Origin: Pseudisothecium myosuroides
Lineage: Eukaryota > Streptophyta > Bryopsida > Hypnales > Lembophyllaceae
Assembly: GCA_951799445.1 (NCBI GenBank)
Contig: OX637295.1
Span: forward strand, 19,406,001-19,470,000
Reading direction: 5' to 3'
DNA: 64,000 bases
This document shows, one piece after another, positions 1 to 55,637 of this stretch. Both the position numbers and the translations under genes were made by a program. Positions within the stretch are counted from its first letter, which is position 1. Each line of letters starts with the position of its first letter. The notes under the pieces were generated by a model, which searched no databases, was not told the DNA's origin, and was given only the letters and a program-made list of their open reading frames with translations.

Positions 1-300
1 GATTCGTCATACGGAGGCTGTGTACTTCATTTCAGCTCCTTCTCAGGTTTGTTTTCTTTTTGTTGCAATTTGAATTCTTGTTTGAAGCTGCAACAGTGAA
101 TGGGAGTTGAATGTTTGTTGCAGGGTGCATTTCGTAGAATTATGTGATTCATGTCAGGGTTAGACCTAGAATAACTGACAACAGAGAAAACAGCGTCAAG
201 TTAAAGCAAGTTCAAGTCGAAGGCAACTCAACTCGAAGCCAATTCAACTCGAAAACACACGTAAATTAAAAAAAGATTAGCTAAATCAGACCAAAGGCCT
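1..300. other. Left edge, upstream of the palindrome array
   Basis: No complete gene is visible. Bases 2-46 followed by GTTTGT, and 124-147 after TTGCAG, can be read as two spliced exons ending in TGA, so this may be the 3' end of a gene lying to the left. The peptide is too short to name. From about 205 to 270 there are half-sites (TTCAAGTCGA, CAACTCGAAG, TTCAACTCGA) that resemble single arms of the palindromes beginning at 308. Confidence 0.2.
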
Positions 301-307
301 CAGCCAA

Positions 308-1481
308 ATCAACTCGAATCGAGTTGAAATTGGAAAATTCAGACCCATAAACAAAACCTAATAGTTCAATTCGATTCGAGTTCAATCCAAAAAACAATAT
401 TCAGTAGAGAAAAGCAGTAGGTCCATAGTAGACTCACCATTCAACTTGACCCGAGTTGAATCCAAAAAGTAATTTTCATTAGAGGAAAGCAGTAGGTCCA
501 TAGCAGACTCCCCATTCAACTCGACCCGAGTTGAATCAGAAAAGTGATTCTCAGTAGAGGAAAGCAGTAAATCCACAGCAGACTCACCATGCAACTCGAG
601 CCGAGTTGAATGAAAAAAAGACTTTCAGACTGAGAAGGCAGTAGGTCCACAGAAAACTCTCCATTCAACTCGATCCGAGTTGAATAATAAAAACTGACAG
701 AGCCAAGGGCTAACAAAAACCCAACATCACAATCACCATTCAACTAGGGTCGTGTTGAATCAGCAAAATCGAGGACCGCAAGGGAGCAGAGCAGGTCAAT
801 TGCAGAGACATTTCAACTCGATTCGAGTTGAAACCCAAGGGAGGACCAGGAAAAATATAACCCCAAGACCATGGGGCAACCACTATTCAACTCGGATCGA
901 GTTGACATCATCACTAGGCAGGTGCTAAGCAATGGTCTGGGAGTCCGGAGACGTAGGAACATCAGAAAGATCAACTTGACACAAGTTGATAGAATTTGTG
1001 GACATTAGAAGCATTCACCAAATACACCATGACCGTTTCAATTCAACTCGGTCCGAGTTGAATTCGATACGAAGCAATTTGTCGTAGAATTCCGAATAGT
1101 TTATCATTTCTGCAGTTCAACTCGTGTCGAGTTAAGTGAAGAATTTGCTCTCCCTTATGAGCAATGCCTCAAAGGAAATAAGAGTGGGATCAACCTAACC
1201 AAAGAAAGACAGAAGTCATGACTTCCTATGTTGAAGTCGACTCGACTTGAAATGTGTAACTGTATATGTATAATCTCAGACCTCCCATGAGAAAATAGAC
1301 GTACCCCTCAACTCCACGAAATACTCGAAAGTTACTGGCAAGAGGAAGGTCAAAGTACAGTCCTCAAGGCGGGTCGGCTTAAATTACTCTTACCAACACG
1401 AACTAAAATGAGGAAGGAATTAAACCCACTCTAAGAATGCCGAGGTGTTTGCACCACTCATTCAACTCAAACCGAGTTGAG
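308..1481. repeat. Regular array of 21-bp imperfect palindromes, about 75-bp period
   Basis: Fourteen copies of TTCAACTCG-NNN-CGAGTTGAA start at 308, 365, 440, 515, 590, 664, 739, 812, 886, 970, 1042, 1116, 1231 and 1461. From 365 to 1116 the step is 75, 75, 75, 74, 75, 73, 74, 84, 72, 74. Between about 380 and 660 the spacers are also alike (AGAGGAAAGCAGTA, then GTCCA.AG.A.ACTC.CCAT), so the array arose as a 75-bp tandem repeat. After 690 the spacers have diverged while palindrome and spacing persist. The copy at 970 has paired changes in both arms (CAACTTG/CAAGTTG). The copy at 739 is worn. The outer TTCAA/TTGAA is the most constant part. The pattern suggests binding sites for a dimeric protein, probably the promoter or leader of the gene starting at 1510. 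That role is inferred. Confidence 0.9.
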
Positions 1482-1509
1482 ACTAACAAGGGTAATCGCA
1501 TGCGCAGAC

Positions 1510-2949
1510 ATGGAAGAGCAAAAGAATAAACTGCACGTGAACTTCAAGCGCTTCCTCATTGAGGGCGATGAGGACCTAGAGGACTTCGGCGTTGACCTCA
1601 TCCTTGGAGAGTACTGGACCTGGAAAGAGCCAGAAAGCGTGGAATGCTGGGGCATCTGTCTCACCCCGTGCACAGGACACCTGAGCTTCAAGACAAAGTA
1701 CAGGAACTGCCAGGAAACGCTGCCAGTGTCCTTGACCGAGTCCGTGACAAAGTTCAAGACTGGCCCGGACAACATGTTCATAGTTTCCTGCAAGACGGTC
1801 GACCCTGACCAGGAGGAGGAGTACGCGTTCTCGTACATAATCCCCGCCAAGGATATAATTTACTTGGTCTCGATGACAATCCGGAGTCTTGAAAACTCTG
1901 CATACAAGGGGGTCTACTCAAACCTCATTAATGCTATCGAGAACAAGAGGTGGGTCAGCAAGGACGGAGGACCCCTATCCCATAAGGTCCTTCTCTCTTG
2001 GCTGAACTACCTTCTCAAGGGGTTCGAGAATGAACGGGACAAGCTGAAAGAGAACAAGGCTAAGTTAACACCGATAGCAATTTCCAGGGAGTACACACCA
2101 GGTGGGGCAAGCCACGGGTCTCTTGTTGTCGACACAGCCGAGACACAGAAGAGCAGGACGAAGCGAAAGTCCACTGCTGTCGATGCAAGAGGGCCACGCG
2201 ATAAAACTCCGGCGAAGGGAAAGAAGCTCCAGGCAAAGGCTGATGCCGAGGAGAGAGCGAAGGAATTGGAGGAAGAGAGCATGATCTCCGTGCTCACCGA
2301 CCTTCCCAAGGACGCGCAGAACAGTCGGGTCGAGGTCAATTACGAGGAGTCCAGGAAAATCTACAAGGACTATTGGTCACAATGTACCGACTCATACATT
2401 GACGGGGTCGAAGTGTCCCAAGAAATTTTGATCGACCAACTGGAGAGCCCGCCAGCCGAACTGAACGTGCGTTGCCTCAAGGAGAAGGGCATCATGTCGG
2501 CTCTCCAATTTTACCTGGAGATGCCTGACCCCCGAGAGAAGATGACGCTTTGTGCAATGCCTCAGGACCTGACAGAGCGGCCCGGGGACTTCAAAGATGT
2601 CGCCTCGGAGAAATTCTGGATGATCAACGGGCAGCACAGCGTGGAGGCAGCAAAGAGGATGAGGAACCTTCCCGGGTACGAAGCAAAATTTAAGAAATTC
2701 AAGACGTGGGAGTGCTACGTTGTCTGGAACAAGGACGCCAGGATTATTCGCAAAATATTGGCGTGGTATAACCGAGTAAACCACTTCCAGAACTACATGC
2801 CGACCTGGGCCAGCAACATCCTCAGTGCCAGAAATGTCTGGATTAGCCTCGGCAAGCCGCCTCCTCCAAAGGAACCGACGGAGCTGGGGTCGACCGTCAG
2901 AAAGGAGCAGAAGAGCACAACTGATGTAGCCTCGACCCTGAAGTGGAAC
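1510..2949 (+). CDS. Exon 1 of palindrome-linked locus: protein with ParB/DGQHR-like NGQH motif
   Basis: Open for 480 codons from ATG 1510 (MEEQKNKLHV) to a GTAAGT donor at 2950; without splicing it stops at 2956. The first 180 residues have no motif I recognise. A basic, lysine-rich and charged segment follows (about residues 210-265, with KRKS and PAKGKK, likely nuclear). The C-terminal third contains FWMINGQHSVEAAKRM (about 369-384), then W-E-CYVVWNKD and a YNRVNHFQNYMP stretch. An N/D-G-Q-H-(R/S)-x-x-A motif is typical of ParB/DndB-type folds, which in bacterial mobile DNA often accompany DNA methyltransferases. The next block looks methyltransferase-like, which supports the reading. Base composition is clearly more GC-rich than the flanks. 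The function is unproven; a diverged plant-specific family is the alternative. Confidence 0.6.
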
Positions 2950-3108
2950 GTAAGTTAACCCATTCTACTCGAGTCGACTTGAATCGTCTTTCTCTGTCGC
3001 TGCTTGTAGACGATTTATCTTTTTGTTGATTCAAGTCAATGCGAGTTGAATCCTGAGCAGGCTTGAATTCTGACGTTGTCCACTTTGGTTCAAGAATTTC
3101 AAGACGCC
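2950..3108 (+). other. Putative intron 1 with two palindromes; junction does not keep frame
   Basis: A GTAAGTTA donor at 2950 is followed by palindromes at 2963-2983 and 3030-3050. The best acceptor (CCTGAGCAG, ending at 3060) leads straight into GCT TGA in the required phase. Later AG sites at 3094 and 3103 also give TGA in that phase. Exon 1 and the next block therefore cannot be joined in frame with the sequence as given. Either a small indel has broken the join or the downstream ORF uses its own ATG at 3109. Confidence 0.55.
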
Positions 3109-4449
3109 ATGAAACTTTGCTTCGCCATGATTGACATCAAAAAGAACCAGGACGCCGCCAATAGAGCACAGCTTGAGAAACTTGACATTCACAACGAGAT
3201 CAAGCTAATCACCGCAACCGATGAGGTCCACAACTTGTGGACGGAGGTTATTTCAAAGCACACGGAAGGGCTTCTCATCGATCCGGAGTCTCTCAAGCCA
3301 ATGAAGGATACGAAGAACTGGGACAAGGAGAGGGACGGTGCGTTCTCTCGGGAGTTCTTCAAGTGGATGGGGAACACCACTGAGAACGATCTCAAGAGAC
3401 TTGCTCTGCACCTCCTCAACAGAACGCCGGGGAGGACCCTCTTGTATCCAAAGGTGACAGTCAAGAAGGTCCCGGGAGTCATTCCCGATTGCTACAGCTC
3501 GGGACAGTGGCTGGAGAGGGTCAAGAGGAAATGGGCTATGAAGAAGTTTCTCTGGCTTGAGAAGCGGAGCCTTGGACTCTTTGGAGCCAAAGGATCCTAC
3601 CGTCGGGAGGCGTGGAAGGCTTTCAAGAAGAAGTATGATATCACGCCGGCCACGAAGCAGCTCCTCTTGACGGCTCCCAAGGAAGAGTTCTTTTCCCAGG
3701 TGAAGAGGCCATCCTCGAAGAACAAGAAATGCGAGGAGTTGTCGCCTTATGCGGCGGAATTCTTCAAGGTATTCCTCAGGAGCAAAGGAAAGTACAAGAA
3801 GCCCGAGGCTCGGGCTTACTTGAGGTCATACGACTCCGAGGAAGACGTAATGGGGTCATGGGCCCCCGGGGCATGGGATGAATCGATGAAGAGCTCCATC
3901 AAGCTGGCGCTGCTGAACTTCCGGAACATCCCAGGAGTGAAGTATAAGAGCACGGCCCCAAAAGAATCTCCGTATTACGAAGAATTCATGGAGAGGGCGC
4001 TGCAGTTGATCGACCCATGCCTCACAGATCCGCAGGTCTGGCTGTGGATTACCGGGGACGAGGAGGTGGATGACCAGGTGAGGGGATTCATCAGGACGGG
4101 GAAGATGGCGGGAGTCTACACCTCGCACTATGCAGTGTACCTCCCGACCGTGCCTGCGGAGCGACTCATGGACCTGAATCCTCATGCTTCTGCTGCCAAG
4201 GCTCCCATGCACCTCATCTTCCTCATCAAGAGAGGTGCTCAGATTAAGCCCAGGTCAATACCGAGGCGATTTGAGGTCCCGATGGACGGCAAGTGGTCTA
4301 AGGCGGGATCTTACAACAAGCTGGAGTACCAGATCTACGACATAGAACTCCGAATGGAGTTCTACCTCGACGTGCTGGACCTCTTCTGCAACTCCCGGAA
4401 TGATGTGCTCTCCATATTCGCCGGTGGCAAATTTGTGTGTGCTGCCTGG
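3109..4449 (+). CDS. Exon 2 of palindrome-linked locus: amino-methyltransferase-like protein
   Basis: Open reading from before 3109 (first ATG, MKLCFAMIDIKKN) to a GTAAGTTA donor at 4450, 447 codons. The block is lysine-rich and mostly helical in character. Near its end, about residues 417-447, is EFYLDVLDLFC followed by NDVLSIFAGGKFVCAAW. This resembles the closing segment of beta-class N6/N4 amino-methyltransferases, where a region around a proline/leucine-rich helix precedes VLDpFaGsGTt..AA, the SAM-binding motif. The acidic first residue and GxG spacing are altered (FAGGK). A DPQVWLW at about 307 lies where a D-P-P-[YFW] catalytic motif could be expected, but it is not canonical. It may be an inactive or strongly diverged enzyme. 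Exon 3 follows in phase 0 at 4801. Confidence 0.5.
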
Positions 4450-4800
4450 GTAAGTTATTTGTCCTGTACTGTTGCTTTCAAGTCGAGTCGAGTTGAATTT
4501 CGGGGGTGCCTTGGCGATCCTGTTTTCTGACTCATTTCATGTGTGCTGGTTCGTTTACTTTGTCCGTTTACTTATTGGTTACTTGTTTTAAGTTGGTCCG
4601 AGTTGAACTCCTTCTTCATTGTCTGCGTTCCGGATTCACGTCGGCCCGAGGTAAACCTCTTATGGTCTGTCTACTCCGTAAATTCAAGTCGGTCCAAGTT
4701 GAAACCTTATTTCATGGTCCGGATTGGTCATATTCCGGGAGTCAAGTCGACCCGACTTGAACCACACGTTGGCAATACTGAATCGTGTATTGTTTGGCAG
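4450..4800 (+). repeat. Intron 2 filled with palindromes
   Basis: The 351-bp intron runs from GTAAGTTA to TTTGGCAG and keeps phase 0. It contains palindrome copies at 4477-4497, 4587-4607, 4635-4655 (degenerate), 4683-4703 and 4741-4761, so about a third of the intron is palindrome. The left arms here are often TTCAAGTCG rather than TTCAACTCG. Confidence 0.75.
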
Positions 4801-5735
4801 ATGTCTGGCATGGACCACTTCTCCATCGACGACGCGGACTTCCATGATAAATTTCAGGACATGGCAGTGACGTTGGAGAATCTGGACAAGGATGACTTCC
4901 TTCAGTCCAGCTATTTTGTGGACGAGAATGCCCATCCAGAGAAGGCGGCGCCCACACCCGACAAGAAGGGATCGCATTCAAGAAAGGGGAAGGAGAGGGC
5001 GACATCTCCTGTTCCGGAGCCGTCTCAGCAGTTGGTATTGCTGGACATGGTCGTGGACCTGGAAGGAGGTGATGGGGAAGAGGAAACATGGGTTGACCCC
5101 GTGAATGCCATCATCGCCGCTGACCGACCCCTCTGCCGTATTCGGGGGCCCGACAGGAGTCGAGCCTCATGCGCGGGTCCTCAGCATCCGCGCGAGATCA
5201 CGTGAATGTAACTCCGACGTCCGATCGGCGCGTTCCCGCAAAGAGGAAGAGAGAGCAGGCCACAACAGAGTTCAGCGGGTTGGACTTCATGAAGTGGCAG
5301 GCTGATCTCGACAGCAAACGGGAGTCGGACAAGGCTGAGATGATGGTCTACATGAAGACCCTGGTGCAAAATGCCATTTCAAGGATCATCGTGCAGCCCT
5401 TGCAGCAGGCCCTGTTCGCCCCTTCACCTCAGTTCGTGGCACCTCAAGGAGAGAGCTTGAGACCGTCCCCGTGGATTCAACTCGAGTCGAGTTCCTTAGC
5501 AGCATCTCCATCCACAGTGTCAGAGGACGTCAATGCTGGGGTAGGTCCATCTGGGCATCGGGAAGGGGAGGAGGAGTTCCAAGACGTGGCCGAGGTCGAA
5601 CAAGATCGGGAAGATGACCACACGGATATGTCCGGGGACCGAGAGTCTGAGGAGGGGCAGAAGTTGGACGAGGTTCATCTTGAGCAGGCCTCGGATCCTG
5701 ACACGGAGCCAGGTGGTTCCCAGGACCTTCCCTGA
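4801..5735 (+). CDS. Exon 3 of palindrome-linked locus, acidic C-terminal part, frame broken
   Basis: Reading in phase 0 from 4801 gives MSGMDHFSIDDADFHDKF, then a basic RKGKERATSP patch and an acidic stretch, and stops at 5203-5205. A second frame, open from 5124 to the stop at 5733-5735, continues with similar composition: VPAKRKREQ (nuclear-signal-like), a helical segment KWQADLDSKRESDKAEMM, and a long acidic tail ending GGSQDLP. A single-base indel between 5124 and 5205, for example in the G run at 5144-5148, would unite them. An unrecognised short intron is the alternative. A palindrome copy lies inside the coding part at 5476-5496 (IQLESSS) and another at 5743-5763, just after the stop. 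No enzymatic domain is seen. Confidence 0.5.
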
Positions 5736-5742
5736 CCTTTCA

Positions 5743-5763
5743 TTCAAGTCGACCCGAGTTGAA
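5743..5763. repeat. Last palindrome copy, 3' of the stop codon
   Basis: TTCAAGTCG-ACC-CGAGTTGAA lies eight bases after the TGA of exon 3. It is the rightmost copy I see in the window and marks the right limit of the palindrome-bearing locus. Confidence 0.85.
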
Positions 5764-5883
5764 CTATCTCAGTGGTCTATCGTCATGTCGTTGAAGATGC
5801 ACTACGTAGTTACTGGTAGATAGGTCGGCGAAGACTATGAAGTTGAATATATTGTAAATTTATTTCTTGTTCAAAGACTTTGT

Positions 5884-5889
5884 AATAAA
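5884..5889 (+). terminator. Possible polyadenylation signal of the palindrome locus
   Basis: AATAAA in the AT-rich stretch TTTGTAATAAATATATTGG, about 150 bases after the stop codon at 5735. It is placed correctly for a 3' UTR signal before the next gene. Confidence 0.35.
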
Positions 5890-6060
5890 TATATTGGTTC
5901 TCACAAAGTTCTTTCTCTGTACGATTTTTACAGCCGCAGGCTCTCTTCCTTCCGAAAATCTGGCTGTTGGTTGTGCTCGTCCGTGTAGTCCCCCGAATGT
6001 GTGCACTCTGTCGTTGTCCGCGCATGAGGATTTAGTGTTAGCCTAGGGGCTGCTCATCTG

Positions 6061-7306
6061 ACACGGCCTGATTCGCCAGGAATTCCCGTCGATGTTGACC
6101 TGATTTTAGCTGAGGAGGTGGCCAGAGCCTGTAGTCTTGACGACGCAATTTTCCAGCTTAAAATTCCTCCATCAGCAACGTCGGCGGATGCAGTTATTCC
6201 TTCACCAGTCCCCGAGGATGCAGATCCAGTGAGTGTTTTTCCCCACACGTATTTTTGGGTGTTCTTCTCGGTGGTTTGTAATTCATCCTCGTCGTTATGC
6301 TTGTGTGGATTTTCAGTAGCGTGGTGCGCATGGGTTTGACGAGTTGGAAATTGTCGCTGTTCATTCTGAACAGGTTAGAAGTGAGAAAAGGATACCTGTA
6401 GGTGAGGAGGACGTGCAGGTTCTTCCGCCATTCTCGTCCAGGCTGACAGAGAAGAAATGGCTCAATGTCGTCCTGGATCTGAATGGCCTACTTTGCGTGT
6501 GCGAAGAACTAATCTATGACTTAGATGAAAAGAAACTTTGCTCGCCCAGTGAGGTAGATCCTAAGCTAGGGCACTTGGCAGCGGAGATCAACAGGGTCAC
6601 TCATCGACCGTACCTGAGGAAGTTCCTACAGGAGTTAAACTCCATAGCCAACGTGTCAGTGTGGAGCTCCATGAACAGGTCGTATGCCGAACTGGTGTGC
6701 GCAAACCTGTTCTATAAATTAGATCCACCAGTGTATATCTTCGGACAAGAACAGTGCAACGTTATGAAGTGCAGATCGAGAGATGGGAAAAGTTTAGTCA
6801 ACTTCAGATTGAAGGGGATAGAGAAGGACTTGTTCTTGAAACCCTTGGAGAAGTTGTATGATTTGAGTGGTTCTTGCTTCTCTAAACACAATACAATTAT
6901 TGTGGACGACAAACCGGAAAAGCACTTCATGAACGACCCCGTGAATGTGGTGCTCTTCGATACGTGGTCGTCTGAGGGATATGGAGAAGGAGATTCAATA
7001 CTCATAGATCATCTCCTCCCTTGGATTCGAAGACTGCACACGGAGAGGCCTTGGGAACTGTATCCCTTTCGGAGAGATGATGATATGGGGGGCCTCCACC
7101 TTGCCCTGCAACCCAACGAAAGCAAGTACAAGGAGCTGTATAGGGCACTGGAGGTCTCCAATTTTATCATTGATGAGTTTAGGGAGAAGAGTGGTAGGCC
7201 TTACGTGTCTCCTAAAAGGCCAGGCAAATCGAAGCGCAAGGACCTTGATATAGAGGACATTATGTTCGTCAATTGTTCGCGACCAGACCTACATGGGGAT
7301 TTCTAG
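6061..7306 (+). CDS. FCP1/NIF-type phosphatase-like protein (catalytic motif altered)
   Basis: Two exons are supported: one up to 6228 (open from 6028, no ATG seen, so the true start lies in an undetected upstream exon) and one at 6320-7306, joined in phase 0 by GTGAGT..TTTCAGTAG. The second exon holds an FCP1-homology (HAD superfamily) domain. KKWLNVVLDLNGLLCVC is motif I, RPYLRKFLQEL and VSVWSSMNRSY are the motif II region, and HNTIIVDDKPEKHF is motif III. Active CTD phosphatases have DxDx(T/V); here it is D-L-N-G-L, so the second aspartate is missing, while the motif III acidic pair is kept. Proteins of this sort are probably catalytically weak or are binding proteins. A basic tail (PKRPGKSKRK) precedes the stop. 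The palindrome locus ends only about 300 bp upstream. Confidence 0.8.
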
Positions 7307-7472
7307 GTGCTGTAGGACGTAGCCTTCTCTTCATGTGTGCTACTAAAACTACTTGTCAAACCGTTGCCTTTTATACTGTATGCATATTTGTTGTGGATAA
7401 TGAAGAAGTTAGTGATTGCAGAACACATTGTTTTGCGTACGTACCTAAATTTCCTTCCTCTGTTTGCCACAG

Positions 7473-8211
7473 GCTTTGCATCGTAAATTGTTCTCAAGTA
7501 TTGATTGTGGTGGCAAGTCTACTGCCTCTCATGATTCGTTTTCAGACTATGGTCAGTTTGCAATATCGGAGAGTGCTGTAGGGCACATTATGTTTTCTGC
7601 TAAAACGGCGCAATCCACAATGGACTTCTCCGCGATGCCTGTCGATGATGGGGTTGTGGATAGTCCACCCAATCCAAAGAAGCGCACCAGCACTGTCAGC
7701 TCTCCTTCTCCGTTGAAATCTTGTCGAAGGTCGACGTCACCCCAAGAGCGCTTTGGATTGAATCCTGAGACGCAAAGAAAGCTGTACGGTGAACAAATAG
7801 GTGTGCTGCCCACCCTCGAGGTACAAAGGTTTTCATTTTTATGATTAACCTTTGGAGCTTGTGTTTGTCAACTGGATTGGATTGCTAATTTTCTGATTTC
7901 AGTTGGCTTGGCAGGGCGGTGACATCGTCGCTAGGTTTGTTTCCAACGTTGGCAATGGTGTGCATGGTTTGCCACTTCCAAATGCCGATTCAAGAGAGCT
8001 GCCTACAATAGCAAGGGTTTCCAGAGCTCGTTTGCCTCGATGCAATTCGTTGGGAGTTGCCACACGACAATCCAAGTCACATAATATTGTTATGAAACCG
8101 AATTCTCTTAATTCCAAACCATGGGACGCTTGGGAAGAGAGGTCCTTGCAGGTGCAAAGACGGGAGATTGCGCGGACATCGTCTTCGCAAAAGAAAAATG
8201 GGTACAGTTGA
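7473..8211 (+). CDS. 3' exons next to the FCP1-like gene, unknown product
   Basis: Two exons fit well: 7473-7820 (after TTTGCCACAG, ending at GAG|GTACAAAGG) and 7903-8211 (after TGATTTCAG), both phase 0, ending in TGA. The encoded 218 residues are serine-rich and basic (PPNPKKRTSTVSSPSPLK; RRSTSPQERFGLNPE), look disordered, and show no domain. They may be the alternative C-terminus of the FCP1-like gene, joined by a donor upstream of the stop at 7304, or a separate small gene. I found no strong phase-0 donor before that stop, so the link is uncertain. Confidence 0.5.
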
Positions 8212-8481
8212 GGGCCAGAGATAATTGCGGCAATGGAGAAGTTGAAGAGTACATCGCAATCTTAGTATGTAGATAGAAGACTATGGAAGACATTGCACTC
8301 CCTCCTATGTAGTAATATAAAAATTTTGTGTATCACTTAATTGTTATTGAGTAGTTTACAATTTTTGATTCCGATGGTTGTGCCATCTTGTAGAAAATAG
8401 CTGAAATTCAGTGCTGCGAATCATGGATTGTTCCAAACTGTGAAAAAAGGTGCCACAATGTTGTAGTTGACAGTTTCTGAA

Positions 8482-8791
8482 GAAGGTACCTCAGTGTTTG
8501 AAGGATAAAATAATTTGAAAAGTGTAGGTAGCAACTATTTTCAGAGCGATTATGAAATCAAGAACGGAAATTAGAAAACTATAGAAACAAGCTATGTCAA
8601 TCTCCTTCGCAAATACTCTTATAGGCTGCAGTTTACACACTCCGGTGTGTAAGAGTACTTGTCAAGGAGCATGACATAGCTTGTTTCTATAGTAGTCTAA
8701 GTTTTGGTCTTGGTTTCATATTCGCTTTGGAATTAGTTGCTATCTATACCTTGCAAAAGATTTCATCCTTTGAATACTGAGGTACTCTTTT
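8482..8791. ncRNA. Long hairpin 1 (foldback; possible small-RNA locus)
   Basis: The left arm from about 8482 (GTACCTCAGTGTTTGAAGGAT) pairs along about 140 bases with the right arm ending about 8791 (ATCCTTTGAATACTGAGGTAC). The inner stem is AACAAGCTATGTCA / TGACATAGCTTGTT (about 8586-8685) around a loop near 8640. Pairing has scattered mismatches, as in young MIRNA loci born by inverted duplication or in foldback transposons. No ORF is present. Which of the two it is cannot be told from sequence alone. Confidence 0.6.
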
Positions 8792-8804
8792 CAAAATACA
8801 TTTA

Positions 8805-9082
8805 AGAATGAAGTAACTAGTAGTCTTTCAGCGACAATTAATTACAAAGCAAAAAGGGGTCAAGAAGTGCTGCGAGAAAGAGACTAGTAGAAACAAGGTA
8901 TTCCAAACTCCTTAGCAAGTACTCTTATAGATTGCAGTTCACACACTGCGATATATAAGAGTACTTCTGAAGGAGAGTGGAAAACCTTGTTTCTACTAGT
9001 CTCTTTCTCGCAGCACTTCTTGACCCCTTTTCGCTTTGTAATTAGTTGTCATTGAAAGACTATTATTTACTTCATTCTTCAA
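8805..9082. ncRNA. Long hairpin 2, tandem relative of hairpin 1
   Basis: The arms run from about 8805 (GAATGAAGTAACTAGTAGTC) to 9082 and are nearly perfect for about 120 bases (for example AAAAGGGGTCAAGAAGTGCT with its complement at about 9014-9033). The apical part (AGTACTCTTATAG..TTGCAGTTCACACACTGC) is closely similar to hairpin 1 (AATACTCTTATAGGCTGCAG), so the two arose by duplication. The high arm identity means a recent origin or selection on pairing. Confidence 0.65.
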
Positions 9083-9085
9083 ACA

Positions 9086-9535
9086 TTGAAGTTCACTCTT
9101 CATTAGCAATTAGCTTGTAATGGTGTTTAGGTTCTCCAAAACATTCTCACTCCAACGACAATGTACTTTATTATTAGGATTGGAACAGCTTATACATACA
9201 TTTACTTGTGCGAAGTCACATTTGATAGTGATTGTACAATTATATTTGAAATGCATGTACATTCTTCTATTACTTTCAATAAATTGTAATATCATTTGTA
9301 AATACTACATGGTGTTGGGAAATTGTGCTATTAATTGTGTGCTTTGTGTGTCATTCCATTGCTTATTTTGCATTTAAATATGTAGCTTGTTTGAGATTGC
9401 AATGCTTGGCAACTATAAATAGAGAATTCTTTGAATTTCAAACTCTAGAGTAGTTCCCATGACTCCCATTTCCTTGGAAAACTCCCAAAGTAATGAATAT
9501 AATGTTTAAATGGAAGAACTATGGTAGATGTTGGA
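9086..9535. other. AT-rich intergenic sequence
   Basis: No gene, splice pattern or clear repeat is visible here. The open frames on both strands are short and lack coding character. Confidence 0.5.
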
Positions 9536-10190
9536 ACGAAAGAGCACACTTGTAACCACCTAGCTTCGCACGGATAGGAAGTGGCACCAGGGTCGTTGTA
9601 GTATTGGAGGATCGTACGGAGGGTCTTTGCGTGACCTGCAATCCGGATTGTTGTCTGGGTGGCTATGAAAGATCAAACCGGATCCAGATTAGTATAGGAA
9701 CTGGTAGAATAGGGAAGTGGGTCTTCAGCCACTATAAGTCACGGAAGGAGTGGCGGGCCTGCCACTTTTAAAAGCAAGCGGCGAACCCTCTGATGGTAAA
9801 ACAGAGGTAAAACCAAACCGGTTAGGAATCAGAGCGGATGTGAGTAGACCGGAACGGATCGGTCTAGAGGAAGTTCAGCATCAGAATTGAGAAGATCCTA
9901 GAATTGTGATAGGTTTACAAGACTGGATTACTGGACAGATTGGAAACAGGGAGAGATCGAGTCGTAGTTTTCTGGGTGTTTTGTTGTTTCCGGTTTTAGA
10001 TCTAGGACCGAAAAGTAGGATTTGAATATTGACTGAGCTTAGAAACCAAATAGGGCGAAATACTTCACAGAATCTCGTGGGTTCGATCTTTAGAGTCACT
10101 TTGTTATGCTCTAGGGTGGTTTTTGGAAGTATAACAGGGAATTTACCTGCCCTGTGCTGCGACACGGGCAGTTGAGCGCTTCGAATGGAC
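9536..10190. repeat. Dispersed repeat related to 21.3-22.2 kb
   Basis: Shares an ordered set of features with 21330-22220: a GTGACCT..CCGGATT segment, a CCGGATCCAG segment, AAAAGCAAG-GCG-ACCCT followed by GG-TAAAA-AGAGG, and an end with an ACACGGG or CCCGTGT motif. Probably two decayed members of one repeat family, perhaps LTR-derived. No coding domain is left. Confidence 0.4.
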
Positions 10191-10274
10191 GATTTAATGT
10201 CTTGTGTAGAGGAGGAGAATTGAAATCAAACTCTTCAAATTCACACGCCAAAGCCAACTTGGCGCCCCTCCTTG

Positions 10275-10425
10275 GTGAGTCTGCTGTGGGGATGCTCTGA
10301 GCCATCATCAAATTTGGCCGTGGCCGGCATCTTGGCGAATTTGCGGTGGAGCACGCACAGTGGCTGGACTCACCAATTCCCCGAGTTGGAGTCATATTTA
10401 GAGCTACGATGGGGATGCTCTTAGC
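10275..10425. repeat. Direct repeats flanking a short element
   Basis: TGGGGATGCTCT occurs at about 10287 and again at about 10409, followed by similar AGC bases. Such GGGATGCTCT ends are common in short plant elements. The rest of 10426-11080 is AT-rich with no gene seen. Confidence 0.3.
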
Positions 10426-11080
10426 TACAATAATAAAAAAGAAGAAAAATTGTTGTTGAAGAACAAGCTCTCACATTTGCAAAGACTTGACTCTAATGCC
10501 ATAATAAAGATTTTAAAAATGAAGCTAGACAAGTATTTATGATTGCGCATCCAACTATGCAAACTTGTACCAATGCCTTTGGTAAGACCTATACTTTCAT
10601 TTCTTTTTCTTTTTTTGACACTATGCTTTTATTTGATTTTTTGAATTTAAAGCAAAAGTTTGTTTCTGGATAGTGGGAAGGTGCTGCGCTCTTCTCAGTG
10701 TTCAGGAAATTTTTAGAAGTCCTTCAGCTGATTTCCTCCTTCCACAAAAATCAACCGGTTTTTTTCCGATGGGCACCAACTACATCCTTTGATCTTCAAA
10801 AAGTATCAAATTATTTCTTCCAATTTCAATTTCTCACCAACTAATTTGTTCCAAACTGAAATTGGCACTGGCTAAATTATGAAATTCTTACAATATATAG
10901 AAAAACAAGTTAAAGATGAAAATAAACACAAGATTGATGATACTTTTGTAAATTTTTTTTTAAAGCAAATGAATCTTGACTGCTTGTGTCAAAATTTGGT
11001 TTAGAATACCTATAGTCTGGTAGAGTAACCAAGTAACAATAGATTCGAGTACCAATATTGTATTGTACTGTACTGTATAA

Positions 11081-11311
11081 TTAACCCTTGAACGACGGGC
11101 CAGTCACCGTGAAAATCCTCTGTTTTGTCACTGAGTAACACCATCTACATTAAAAAAACTCAAAAGTATCTATTGGAAGTCAAGCTACTGTAGAAGATCT
11201 CTCCTTTTCACAACAAATTGGGAGGATGAATAAGCGCACTTTTGTCCTATTCAGTTTGATTATCTGTCATCCATCGGCCATAGAATGACCTCTTCAATGT
11301 TCAAGGGTTAA
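11081..11311. mobile_element. Small piggyBac-like MITE (TTAA ends)
   Basis: Begins TTAACCCTTGAAC and ends GTTCAAGGGTTAA, giving inverted termini starting CCC inside TTAA at both ends. The TTAA target duplication with C-rich termini is the signature of piggyBac-type elements. 231 bp, no ORF, so non-autonomous. Confidence 0.65.
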
Positions 11312-12084
11312 GGACGGGGAAGCTCAAGGGGCCACCGAGAGCTTCAGCAGCCAGGCCCACAGCCACCAGGACGTGGTGGACCATTTTATTTTTAAATAAA
11401 TGTTTTTAAAAACTGTAAATGGCCAAATTTATAAAAGGGAACCTGACTTGAAATTTCCAAAATTCAGACTTCAAAGTTCAGACCTTTTGACTCTAGCTTC
11501 ATCCCCCTAGGAGTTTGCTACCCAAGGATATTGACTCTCTACTTGCCGGGTATTAGACAAGAAATTTCTATCCATGGTGGCTTAATATCCTTCAATTTTT
11601 GGAAGGTGCTGGTTGATTTCTAGTCCTCAAATTTTCTTCCAGGTTTAGCATCCTTCAATTTCAAAATTCAACCAATTTTTTTCCAAATCAATTGGCTAAC
11701 TTTGAACTAACCTGTTTTTTTCCAATCGTTGGATCTTCTATGTCTCAATGATAAATGAGGCTGCTAAGATCATCCCCACAATAACTCAGCAAGTGGTGTA
11801 AACTGGGTACTTGCATAACATTGTTAACCATGGTGGGGGGTACCTTTTTGCTTCCCCCCAACTAGGAGTCCCTCAACCAATGCATGCGAGAGATCTCTAA
11901 CAAGCATGACCAAGCATCTAAGAGGATCAACAAGTTGTTCAGGATTACAACTAAAGTCTCCCCCCAAGAATCTAGTGGGGATTTATACCTCTACATGGGG
12001 GAAAGACCTTTTGCTAGTTAACAATGTTATGTGGTCAGGCTAGGTGAGAACAAGTGCCCCATGGCAGACATGGCAAGGGCAAAA
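11312..12084. repeat. Gene-free stretch with a small foldback
   Basis: Contains an inverted pair, CATAACATTGTTAAC near 11814 and GTTAACAATGTTATG near 12018, bounding about 220 bp with C-rich internal sequence. Probably a small terminal-inverted-repeat element. Nothing else is recognised here. Confidence 0.4.
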
Positions 12085-29068: not shown

Positions 29069-31122
29069 ATGGATTCTTTCTTGGATGATCTCCACAGTGC
29101 TCTTCAGAAGCAGATGCAATCGGAGACGATGGACGATCTAAGGCCATCGTCTTTAGCAAACGTTTGCACTCTTTGCAACGCGAGGATTATTGAAGGACGG
29201 ATGGACTTTAGGCCTTTATACGAGCGACTGGGACGGACAATCGTGAAGCTCGGAAGTCTAGCCATCGCCAGGAATGTGGTGAGTAGTGAGGATCCGTTTC
29301 GGAACCTAAGCGACGACATTCTGCAGCACATCCTCGCCAGGCTGCCTACGTTTCCCCTCATGGCCGCGAAGAAAGTGTGCAAGCGATGGGCGTCGGTGAC
29401 CACCACACCGGAGTTTGATATTTTGCACAAGAAGCTAATCCGTAAATCGCGTTTGGTTCCTTGTGGAATCAACTATATGGGTCCCAGCAAGTCTCAATTG
29501 TTTGCATATGATGTGGAGAACAATAAGTGGCTGATGCTTCCGGCTCTGCAGTTACCGGCTCTTAACTACGGCTCTTTAGCAGGTATTGGAAATGGTGGCC
29601 ATACACCTGGTTTTTGAATATTGTTTTATAAACGCACTGAAACTACAAGAGCTGTTAACGTTCTCCTCTGTACAAACGTTAGAACTATAGATTGAAGTAT
29701 AGAACTGTAGAAAATACAAGAGCTATTAAACAAGAACTATGGATTGAAATCTGTACTAAACGTCTCCTCTGTAATAACTTTTTCAAGAGCTTGAAATTTA
29801 AACTAAGTGTGAATATTCTTCATAGCAGTTGCCAGTGGAGTGGTGTTCGCCATTGCTGGGCCTGGTGACGACAGGCTTTTGTACAAGCTGACGACCTTGG
29901 CGTCCTCCGCTGAGTCTTTTGGAGAATCGTGGTACGAGACTCCTATTATGACGTTCAAGCGGTCGTCCCCGGTGGTGAGTGTGTCCCTGGGCGCTGGCAT
30001 GGGGCATAAAGTGGTGGTGGCTGGCGGGGGGGTGGATTCTAGTGAAGATGACAGGGCTCGACACAGGGCTGTGGAGGTCTTTGATTCTGAAATTGGTAAG
30101 TGGTTTGCAGGTCTCTTTCAATGCCATTAATTGATCATGGATTTATACTTCTGTTGTATTGTTGTGTAGGAGACTTGTTTGCAAAGTAAAACCTTTCTTC
30201 ATGAATGAGTCTTTGTTTTGTCTTTGCAGATGTCTTTGTTTTGTTTTGTCAACATTATGGTTTGTTAACCCAGTTCTGTTCATCGAAAATCTATGAGTTT
30301 TTCAACACCCGGTATTCGGTGTTTTGAAAGGTGTTCTTCAAATTTTCTTACCATTCTTCTAGTCTGGTAAAGGCATGTTTGTGCTTGGTGTTAAGGAGTA
30401 TTACAAATGAATCTAGGTATACAATTACATTGGATTTACTTTGCTAACATCATTTCTACTTCGAAGTGCAAACACACCTTCCATTAAGCCTCTTTTTTTG
30501 CACTAGTTTTGTGTTCATGGCACTTTCAATGACGACTGCAGGTACTTGGGAGTCCTATGGTGACCTGCCGGAGGAATTATCGGTATACAACTCCGCAAAT
30601 TGGATGTCAGGAGTAGTGTGTGACAACAAATTCTTGGTCTCATCAGTTCACAAATTCGAATTTGACAAAGTCCAAATTCACTCTCTGGATTTTTACACCA
30701 AGCAGTGGGCTTCCATCCAGTTGGTGTGTCCCATGGATTTGATTTACAGCCGCATCATGGCAATCGGGACAACACTTGTGGTCGCCGGGTTATGTCAACA
30801 TGAACATGAAGATGGGGTTCTTAAAGTGAAGCTCTGGAAAGTTGATTTGAAGACCCTCAGCTTGATTCAGATTGGGTTGATGCCAGGGGAATGGGCTGTC
30901 TTGCTCGAAGGAGTACTAGAAAATTTTTTACTCTTGACGTTTCTGGTGGATGAGAATTTGGTGTATATCTCCATGGGTCTCCCCATGCACAATGGGGAGC
31001 TCATCGTGGCAGAGGTTTCATTGGAAGAGTGCAAAACTTATTGGCGTCTTTTGCCAGCTATACGGAAACTGATCCCTTTCAATGAGTTTATCACTTTTTG
31101 CGCTTCTATTAGTTTTGCGTAA
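29069..31122 (+). CDS. F-box protein with kelch-like C-terminal part
   Basis: Three exons: 29069-29582, 29829-30095 and 30542-31122 (donors GTATTG and GTAAGT, acceptors ATAGCAG and CTGCAG, phases 1 and 1). They encode 453 residues. The start ATG 29069 (MDSFLDDLHSAL) opens the frame. The F-box is at about residues 74-112 (FRNLSDDILQHILARLP..AAKKVCKRWASV), which would bind SKP1 in an SCF ubiquitin ligase. After it come ELFAYDVENNKW-like kelch/F-box-associated strands (LFAYDVENNKWLMLP; VVVAGGGVDSS; VEVFDSEI-GTWESYGDLPEEL), the substrate-binding part. The layout resembles Arabidopsis F-box/kelch proteins of the HWS (At3g61590) type. No lesion is visible. The substrate is unknown. Confidence 0.88.
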
Positions 31123-45493: not shown

Positions 45494-46624
45494 TTACAAT
45501 GGAGGCCCGTTGAGTTGCGGCTGAAAAAACAACCCATAGTGAAGCTCACGAGATGCAGGAAGCCTGTTCGTGACAAAATTTTGATTCCAAACCCGATTCT
45601 CCAAATCGTAGAGCGCTCCACCCCAGGTTCCGTCTCTACTGACTGTAAACAAGAGATGGTTCCCACACTGGTAGAGATGTAGAGCTCCATCATTGTCAAG
45701 ATTTTCTGTAGTGTAGTTCAACAGGTCCCTCAGAGGAGCTTTGGTGAGGAGTTGCCAGTTGCTTCGACGCTCCTTCTGGTGAATGCGCACGTACGTTGTT
45801 GGATACACGTTGTAGCTGAGTGCATAGAGGCACGATTCGCCCACAACTGTGGACTCCCTTGTGGTGAGTAAATTAACATTGGTAACCCTCAATTTCTCTC
45901 TGAAGATCCTATCCTCAAAGAAGCTGCAGTCTACAAGCTTCCCGTGTCTGATGTCATACACACTTGATCGAACGTCTCCGTAATTGCTACACTGCACGAT
46001 TTCATTGCTAGCGTTTGCGTAAGTTTCCAACTCCCGTGGAGCTAAGACAGTCGACCATTCATGGGATCCTGAGTCGTATATTTGAACAAGGTTATGGTTC
46101 TTCCAGTGGACAACCACCTTGTATGTCTTGGAATCTCCGTCCACTCTGATGCCCATGTGCAAATCGCTATAGTGCTGAGGGTACCAGGCGTCCTCCAACC
46201 CGGGGGGCAGCTCAAGCCTGAACAAAATAAAGCGGTTCTCACGGCTGATCGGGTTCAACACTACCAGAGGCCACCACTGTGGGAGTGGATTCACTTTACA
46301 AAAACCCGGTACACCGGTGAACAACAGAAGTCCTCCGCTCGAACTTACTGGCCGCAAATGTCGACACGATACTGGGAGCTCCCGGGCAGTGGGGAGTAGG
46401 AGTTGCACCCATTTTTGCAATGAGAATGCATAGTAGGATGGCTTGGCATCCCGAGGCGAAAAGTGCAGGAAGAATGGCTCTCCTTCAAACAGTCCTCTCG
46501 AGCGGGTGATCATGAGCTCGCGAAATCTTTTCGTGATCCCGTAGTGAAATTGCACGACGTCTCTCAAGGGCAGCTTATCCAAAACAAATTTCATCTCATC
46601 CCGAGTGGCTACGAAGAAATCCAT
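45494..46624 (-). CDS. Intronless F-box-like protein with F-box-associated beta-propeller region
   Basis: One open frame. I place the start at the ATG 46622-46624 (MDFFVATRDEMKFVLDKLPL) because this N-terminus is repeated in the two decayed paralogues. The frame is open 26 codons further up to 46702. The protein has 376 residues. The degenerate F-box is at about 10-45 (LDKLPLRDVVQFHYGITKRFRELM). The rest shows F-box-associated strands such as YYAFSLQKWVQLLLP, LVVLNPISRENRFI, DGDSKTYKVVVHW, VQIYDSGSHEWSTV, LVDCSFFEDRIF and LYDLENRVWNQNFV. It would be a substrate receptor of an SCF ligase; the target is unknown. It is the only intact copy in the local three-unit duplication. Confidence 0.82.
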   Translation of the reverse strand: MDFFVATRDEMKFVLDKLPLRDVVQFHYGITKRFRELMITRSRGLFEGEPFFLHFSPRDAKPSYYAFSLQKWVQLLLPTARELPVSCRHLRPVSSSGGLLLFTGVPGFCKVNPLPQWWPLVVLNPISRENRFILFRLELPPGLEDAWYPQHYSDLHMGIRVDGDSKTYKVVVHWKNHNLVQIYDSGSHEWSTVLAPRELETYANASNEIVQCSNYGDVRSSVYDIRHGKLVDCSFFEDRIFREKLRVTNVNLLTTRESTVVGESCLYALSYNVYPTTYVRIHQKERRSNWQLLTKAPLRDLLNYTTENLDNDGALHLYQCGNHLLFTVSRDGTWGGALYDLENRVWNQNFVTNRLPASRELHYGLFFQPQLNGPPL

Positions 46625-46734
46625 GACGATGCGAGGTTGCGTTGTGCATGCATGAGATTGCGGACGAGCTGTGGGACTGCGCGCGTTGACCTCGGGAAAC
46701 ACGCTGCGCTTTCAACGTAACGACGAGGAGGCAA

Positions 46735-54740: not shown

Positions 54741-55637
54741 GGAGGCTTAGCATGGAATCCCATTCAATTGAGGCTGAAAAAACAACCCATTGTGAGGCCC
54801 AGAAGATGCAAGATTCCTATTCACGACAAAATTTTGATTCCAAACCCGCTTCTCCAAATCGTAGAGTGCTCCACTCTAGGTTCCGTTTCTACTGATTGAA
54901 AACAGGAGAAGGTTCCCACATTCATAGAGGTGTAGAAAGAATACATCAGTGCCAAGAATTTTTGTGTAGTTCTACAGAGGAGCTTCGGTGAAGAGTTGCC
55001 AGATGCTTCAATGGTCCTTCTTGTGAATGCGCACGAATGTCGTTGGATACACGTTGTAGCTCAATGCATAGAGGCACCATTTGCCAACAATTGTGAAGTC
55101 AACTGCTTTGCTAGGAAGTGGTTAATACTGATAGCCTTCAATTCTTCTCTGAAGATCCTATCCTCAAAGAAGCTACAGTCCACAATCTTCCCGTGTGTGA
55201 TATCAAACACACTTGATCGAATGGCATCATTTTCTACGTAGGTGCGACAGTCCACTAATTCATTGCTCGAGTTTGCGTAAGTTTCCAACTCTCGCGGAGC
55301 TAAGAGAGTCGACCATTCATGGGATACTGAGTCGTAAATTTGCACAACGTTATTGTTGTTCCAATGCACTATAACCTTGTACGTCTTGGAATCTCCATTC
55401 ACTCTGATGCCTATGAGCAAGTTGCGGTAGTCTTGAGGGTACAAACGGGGCCAGGTGTTGTTCAACTAACTCTCCAACTGGGGTGGCTTCTCAAGCATGA
55501 ATAAAATGCAGCGGCTCTCATGGGTGATCGGGTTCAAGACTACCAAAGGCCACCAGTGTCGGAGTGGATCGACTCTGCAAAAGCCCAATATACCCGTGAA
55601 CAACAGAAGTCCACCACTAAAACTCACTAGATGCAAG

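Follow-up and report, generated by a model that had tools for sequence, protein, structure and literature searches.

In a 64,000-nucleotide stretch of the genome of the moss Pseudisothecium myosuroides (GCA_951799445.1, contig OX637295.1, positions 19,406,001 to 19,470,000 of the forward strand; hereafter the window), a 21-bp palindrome is repeated upstream of, in the introns of and just behind one gene, whose first two exons are predicted to encode a ParB N-domain fold and a methyltransferase fold, and the same palindrome recurs in introns of relatives of that gene. We give even chances to the view that the locus is an element, mobile now or in the past, and that its ParB/pseudo-methyltransferase protein recognizes the element's own non-coding DNA, probably resisting silencing. 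A preliminary description of the sequence had interpreted the region as an ordered palindrome array in front of a ParB-like gene that might recognize it; this interpretation is partly supported by the results below.

A palindrome confined to one locus

The window was searched for TTCAACTCG-NNN-CGAGTTGAA with up to three mismatches, using 100 dinucleotide shuffles of the window as background. All 21 matches fell within 308-5763, compared to a mean of 0.02 and a maximum of 1 in the shuffles. A looser scan (at least 14 of 18 positions, with C or G at position 6) added sites at 970, 1363 and 4635 and a half-intact site at 227. Inverted repeats without sequence preference showed no general excess (26 per kb in the locus vs 33 elsewhere), and the enrichment is therefore specific to this palindrome sequence.

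Thirteen of the matches form the upstream array (308..1481, no strand assigned), at 308, 365, 440, 515, 590, 664, 739, 812, 886, 1042, 1116, 1231 and 1461, with a symmetric variant at 970 and a weak site at 1363. The steps from 308 to 1116 are 57, 75, 75, 75, 74, 75, 73, 74, 84, 72 and 74. The preliminary description had given a fixed step of 72 to 84 bp; a regular array is present where it had been placed, but the first step (57) is outside that range and sites 1231 and 1461 are placed more loosely than the rest. When sites were placed at random, spacing as even as that of the array arose 7 times in 100,000; this null takes no account of spacing inherited from a tandem repeat.

Such a repeat, 75 bp long and in 4.4 copies, is still recognizable in the left half of the array (365..693, no strand assigned) by a tandem-repeat scan and the spacer identity matrix. 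This half looks like an ordinary tandem repeat and would fit a functionless satellite that happens to hold a palindrome. In the right half, however, spacers are no more alike than shuffled ones (identity 0.54 vs 0.55) while the palindromes keep an identity of 0.86, and sites are also found in introns and in homologues, so that we disfavor the satellite by-product and find it scarcely credible. The persistence of palindromes and spacing among diverged spacers, and the matched changes in both arms of site 970, had both been reported in the preliminary description and are confirmed here. Just left of the array, at 203-255, are half-sites without a partner (TTCAAGTCG at 211) and a 16-bp tandem repeat (TCAACTCGAAGCCAAC, 212-253), perhaps decayed further sites.

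The array was said to lie in front of the gene. This is true of the 13 upstream palindromes, but the palindrome is also present in two introns and 3' of the stop codon. Two sites are in intron 1 (2963 and 3030), four and a weak one in intron 2 (4477, 4587, 4683 and 4741; weak, 4635) and one directly after the stop codon (5743..5763, no strand assigned), with AATAAA downstream at 5884. One partial site, at 5476, is in coding DNA. With the upstream array excluded, intron and 3' DNA, 646 bp in all, holds 8 of 9 sites (the weak 4635 among them), although coding DNA makes up 3,729 of the 4,375 bp (P = 1.8e-6). The half-site CGAGTTGAA was found 18 times in non-coding DNA of the locus, once in its coding DNA and not at all in the remaining 57.7 kb of the window; the corresponding counts for CGACTTGAA are 7, 0 and 0. 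At this locus the palindromes avoid coding DNA.

Site density is highest immediately before the start codon. A host gene product or repressor might bind the array there and regulate its own promoter, with the sites in introns as helpers or remnants. KorB and Noc, which share the predicted fold, bind palindromes. Autoregulation alone is nevertheless unlikely, because sites also occur within introns 1 and 2, behind the stop codon and in introns of homologues, and because the gene family appears dispersed and multi-copy.

The palindrome in relatives of the gene

Exon 1 has 26 relatives at E <= 1e-3, 25 of which are in alignment A3, and exon 2 has 52. Only one relative among the matches carries a name: P0052, an uncharacterised protein from Physcomitrium patens. 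The predicted open reading frames (ORFs) of relatives often read past the splice donor, so the start of the intron is legible as protein; in frame, the palindrome reads FNS-x-RVE or Q-L-x-x-S/T-stop. A recognizable donor was present in 27 of 78 proteins, nine of which were dropped (eight tails too short, that of P0052 too long), leaving 18 usable tails. With all 21 bases required to be inside the ORF, 3 of the 18 tails scored p <= 0.01. A second scoring let the last base lie past the stop codon, since the palindrome, read in frame 1, has TGA at its end.

The exact palindrome was present in 5 of the 18 tails (P0001, P0006, P0069, P0071 and P0047), and 6 of the 18 had it with at most one mismatch (P0074 in addition), each 10-22 nt behind the 5' splice site. 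Tails shuffled 500 times gave no exact copy and a mean of 0.03 with at most one mismatch (largest, 1). Among 100 permuted half-sites, no more than 1 tail was ever matched, and the exon bodies of the same proteins held no near match in 689 windows. All five exon-1 tails are among the six carriers, compared to 1 of 13 exon-2 tails (P0047 only). Two other exon-2 relatives, P0039 and P0059, had a three-mismatch trace that was not significant. Being 90% alike, P0006 and P0069 are to be counted once among the carriers. The six carrier proteins are only 39-64% identical to the window protein, and an intron palindrome kept over such divergence would imply selection, gene conversion or recent transfer. 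On this sequence evidence, the palindrome travels with the gene family.

A host transcription factor could own the sites, with the element exploiting that factor and the encoded protein doing something else. We infer the tie between binding and the encoded protein, which leaves room for such a factor. The absence of both exact half-sites from the remaining 57.7 kb of the window, and a motif that follows the gene family across wide divergence, make it quite improbable.

Contigs of five sizes (104904, 72633, 109202, 313938 and 471068 bases) recur in the match lists of both exons, suggesting that exon 1 and exon 2 travel together. Seven relatives of the closest clade, several of them cut short, are on contigs of seven different sizes and have a mutual identity of 78-94% over 46-234 residues. 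On the 471068-base contig, exon 1 is 90% identical to P0006 (62% to P0002) and exon 2 is 86% identical to P0013 (54% to P0027, the partner of P0006). The presence of a P0006-type exon 1 and a P0013-type exon 2 on one contig suggests two diverged copies in one genome. The gene family appears to be dispersed and multi-copy, which is the behavior of a transposable-element gene and points to multi-copy mobility. The rest of the window held no related copy.

Half-sites read in DNA or paired in RNA

The 24 sites have 216 arm positions, of which 33 do not form Watson-Crick pairs; 27 of these do not allow G-U pairing either. Six of the mismatched positions place G opposite G at position 6, where C or G varies independently in the two arms; the intron tail of P0071 seems to show the same independence. 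Arm matches numbered 183, compared to 175.8 from column composition (standard deviation 2.5, p 0.007), a slight excess that may reflect regional C- or G-type half-sites. The occurrence of C or G at position 6 in either arm, and arms that do not pair throughout, speak for two separately read half-sites in DNA.

These data bear on the idea that the palindromes act as hairpins in transcripts, in splicing, stability or small-RNA production. The position of the homologue sites, 10-22 nt behind 5' splice sites, and the slight excess of arm matching are in its favor. The unpaired arm positions are not, and in addition no Rfam family reached the gathering score in 1-8000 and the majority of sites precede the start codon. 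We consider RNA hairpins very improbable.

Predicted folds and missing catalytic motifs

Folds were predicted for the exon products singly, and the region behind the ParB N-domain was modeled at low confidence. The preliminary description had called the adjacent gene ParB-like and proposed comparing its predicted structure with ParB. Residues 300-430 of the exon-1 model (2407..2799, + strand) are indeed predicted to take up a ParB N-domain (CTPase/sulfiredoxin) fold, common to KorB and Noc in the fold search. Of 26 aligned members, 17 cover the place of the NGQH motif (2626..2637, + strand) and all 17 have it unchanged, the next residue being S in 15, K in 1 and I in 1. The likeness does not extend to GxxR of the P-motif, whose arginine binds nucleotide (PMC12704722): none of the 17 covering members has R at the fourth position, the arginine being replaced.

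The fold search assigned a beta-class N6-adenine/N4-cytosine methyltransferase fold to residues 233-449 of the exon-2 model (3799..4449, + strand). A DPP[YFW]-type motif was found in none of 53 aligned members; the presumed DPPY position is covered in 52 of them. Likewise, FxGxG[TS] was present in none of the 53; 41 cover the S-adenosylmethionine (SAM) loop, none with G at the last position of the loop. Pfam N6_N4_Mtase matched a single member of the 53, at E 0.082. To judge from the alignments, the methyltransferase-fold domain is without its catalytic motifs in all relatives examined.

The two folds would also accommodate a land-plant parS-like system, a prokaryote-derived machine for self-recognition and anti-silencing. 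Palindromes sown over the element would then be loading sites for its own ParB-type clamp, which would carry an inactive adenine-methyltransferase domain and spread along the element from there. We rate this as unlikely, though with a chance worth keeping in view. Close relatives of the gene were found neither in the viral contigs nor in the prokaryote genomes searched, the exact palindrome was absent from the viral contigs searched, and tblastn against 50,697 phage records gave zero matches at E <= 1. Pfam, PHROGs and NCBIfam gave no convincing family for the proteins of the gene. A PDB sequence search returned three rows for exon 1 (best E 0.2, none convincing) and none for exon 2. A fold search of viral structures with the exon-2 model returned three rows at E <= 0.001, but with a root-mean-square deviation of 16-26; its further rows were methyltransferases and one phage ParB/sulfiredoxin protein. 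None of these rows was used to judge origin.

Gene structure and neighborhood

All gene features are on the + strand. The exon 1 ORF (1510..2949) ends at a GTAAGT donor, which appears as 'KW.VS' in homologue ORFs. Intron 1 (2950..3095), whose acceptor is uncertain, holds the palindromes 2963-2983 and 3030-3050. Exon 2 (3096..4449) ends at a second GTAAGT donor and is followed by intron 2 (4450..4800). In relatives the donor was deduced from a conserved V-S in the ORF, and exon 2 seems to start at a boundary between Q and EF. Exons 1 and 2 are adjacent, and both domains may be joined in one protein. The first frame of exon 3 (4801..5205) starts in alignment with P. patens P0052 (30%, E 0.003); its probable continuation in another frame, by a frameshift or an unseen intron (5169..5735), includes the partial palindrome 5476-5496.

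The ORF at 6344-7306 encodes an NLI-interacting-factor (FCP1/SCP-type) phosphatase (PF03031, E 5.5e-15) and could be a host gene marking the right side of the element. Further away are an F-box ORF at 29069-29617 (PF00646, E 6e-9) and two ORFs, 45494-46702 and 55061-55465, that look like mutual copies and have no Pfam match.

A proposed element that labels its own DNA

The locus is most likely the cargo of a transposable element. The palindrome would be a candidate binding site of the encoded protein, each 9-bp half-site, TTCAA(C/G)TCG, being read by one subunit of a dimer. At 74-75 bp, or about seven turns, the array sites would be nearly on the same face of the DNA. Sites may have been sown through the upstream region, the introns and the 3' end, wherever the protein sequence permits, labeling the element over its full length. 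Once bound, the protein would keep host silencing off this element only, in the manner of VANC, and might spread along the DNA like ParB clamps. We favor anti-silencing because the distribution of sites is that of VANC21, with an unrelated protein. Self-binding of any kind is about evenly balanced in our estimate, and an anti-silencing function, taken on its own, is put forward tentatively.

Several points weaken this reading. A comparison of 1-1500 with 4401-12000 for terminal inverted repeats yielded nothing beyond the palindromes and matches at chance level. No transposase was seen in the window, outside which the left side of the locus extends. The tail test was post hoc, the motif having first been spotted by eye in such tails. 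At the intron-1 acceptor (3030-3110) in-frame AGs leave a TGA and the nearest AG, at 3093-3094, is out of frame, and exon 3 switches frame between 4801-5205 and 5169-5735. Given the stop or frame problem at this acceptor and the frame change in exon 3, this copy of the gene may be damaged.

The maize element-encoded protein Spm TnpA binds repeated subterminal motifs. If the protein described here were a transposition factor of that kind, the palindromes would be subterminal sites for pairing, and perhaps demethylating, the element ends. The cluster of sites at the 5' side (308-1481) and the one at the 3' side (5743) suit such a factor, and TnpA is described as linked to demethylation of its own element in PMC10398659. 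Many of the sites are internal to introns, however, and with neither terminal repeats nor a transposase seen in the window we regard a TnpA-like role as rather unlikely.

Comparison with known systems

Self-recognition through short repeated sites has a close parallel in the VANC proteins of VANDAL elements, whose motif is repeated in the introns, upstream and terminal non-coding DNA of their own element, partly in tandem, as is the palindrome here. In Arabidopsis, VANC21 localizes to non-coding parts of its own element, namely introns, intergenic DNA and the termini, with targets arranged as tandem repeats (PMC5735166). Its motif is the 9-base YAGTATTAY; VANC21 removes methylation, and the effects of VANC have been shown experimentally (PMC5735166, PMC10398659). 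The motif at the moss locus is a different one, and the effects proposed for it are drawn by analogy. VANC proteins bear DUF1985/DUF287, neither of which was found in Pfam scans of the window proteins, 12 A1 members and 53 A2 members.

Bacterial ParB, Noc and KorB use clustered palindromic parS-type sites; in canonical ParABS, ParB reads parS through an HTH domain and has a ParA partner. The predicted N-domain fold and the clustered palindromes are common to them and to the present locus, which differs in that the P-motif arginine is replaced and the gene is eukaryotic, with introns. In eukaryotes, according to a large survey of the ParB fold, sulfiredoxin is its commonest form, and the survey also names phage proteins in which the fold is fused to an N6_N4 methyltransferase (PMC12704722). 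The phage ParB-CTPase/N6_N4 methyltransferase fusions combine the same two folds; here the protein is eukaryotic and lacks the catalytic motifs, and tblastn against the phage records gave no match at E <= 1.

Among the closest counterparts are algal proteins. The Ectocarpus transposon Sola1-1_Ec32 encodes a 1104-aa ParB-like protein with an N4/N6-methyltransferase, and similar proteins are said to exist in transposons of green and red algae; these, the authors propose, might bind the element that carries them and modify it (PMC12477816). As proposed here, these combine a ParB-like domain and an N4/N6 methyltransferase fold in an element-borne gene. The moss gene differs in its land-plant host, its missing catalytic motifs, the candidate cis sites visible in the DNA and the lack of a transposase in the window. 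The passages of PMC12477816 that were consulted report no cis sites, and its main text does not contain 'palindrom'. The preliminary description had called the arrangement, as far as known, undescribed. The visible sites are new among the papers compared, but ParB-methyltransferase element proteins as such were already known, and self-binding had been proposed, as a proposal only, for those of algal transposons (PMC12477816). Among the matches listed in the literature search, none dealt with a gene or palindrome of this kind in a moss. As far as these papers show, three things are new: the land-plant family, candidate sites that are visible in the DNA and conserved, and a methyltransferase fold that lacks its catalytic motifs.

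What was earlier only proposed for the algal transposon proteins can here be followed through candidate sites that are readable from the DNA and common to relatives. If the favored explanation is true, a second, unrelated class of proteins would use the VANC-type strategy of self-recognition, and ParB-type element proteins would extend into land plants. The methyltransferase part may then have lost its chemistry and become a structural or DNA-reading module, and the protein with its palindrome could possibly be used as a targeting tag for epigenome editing.
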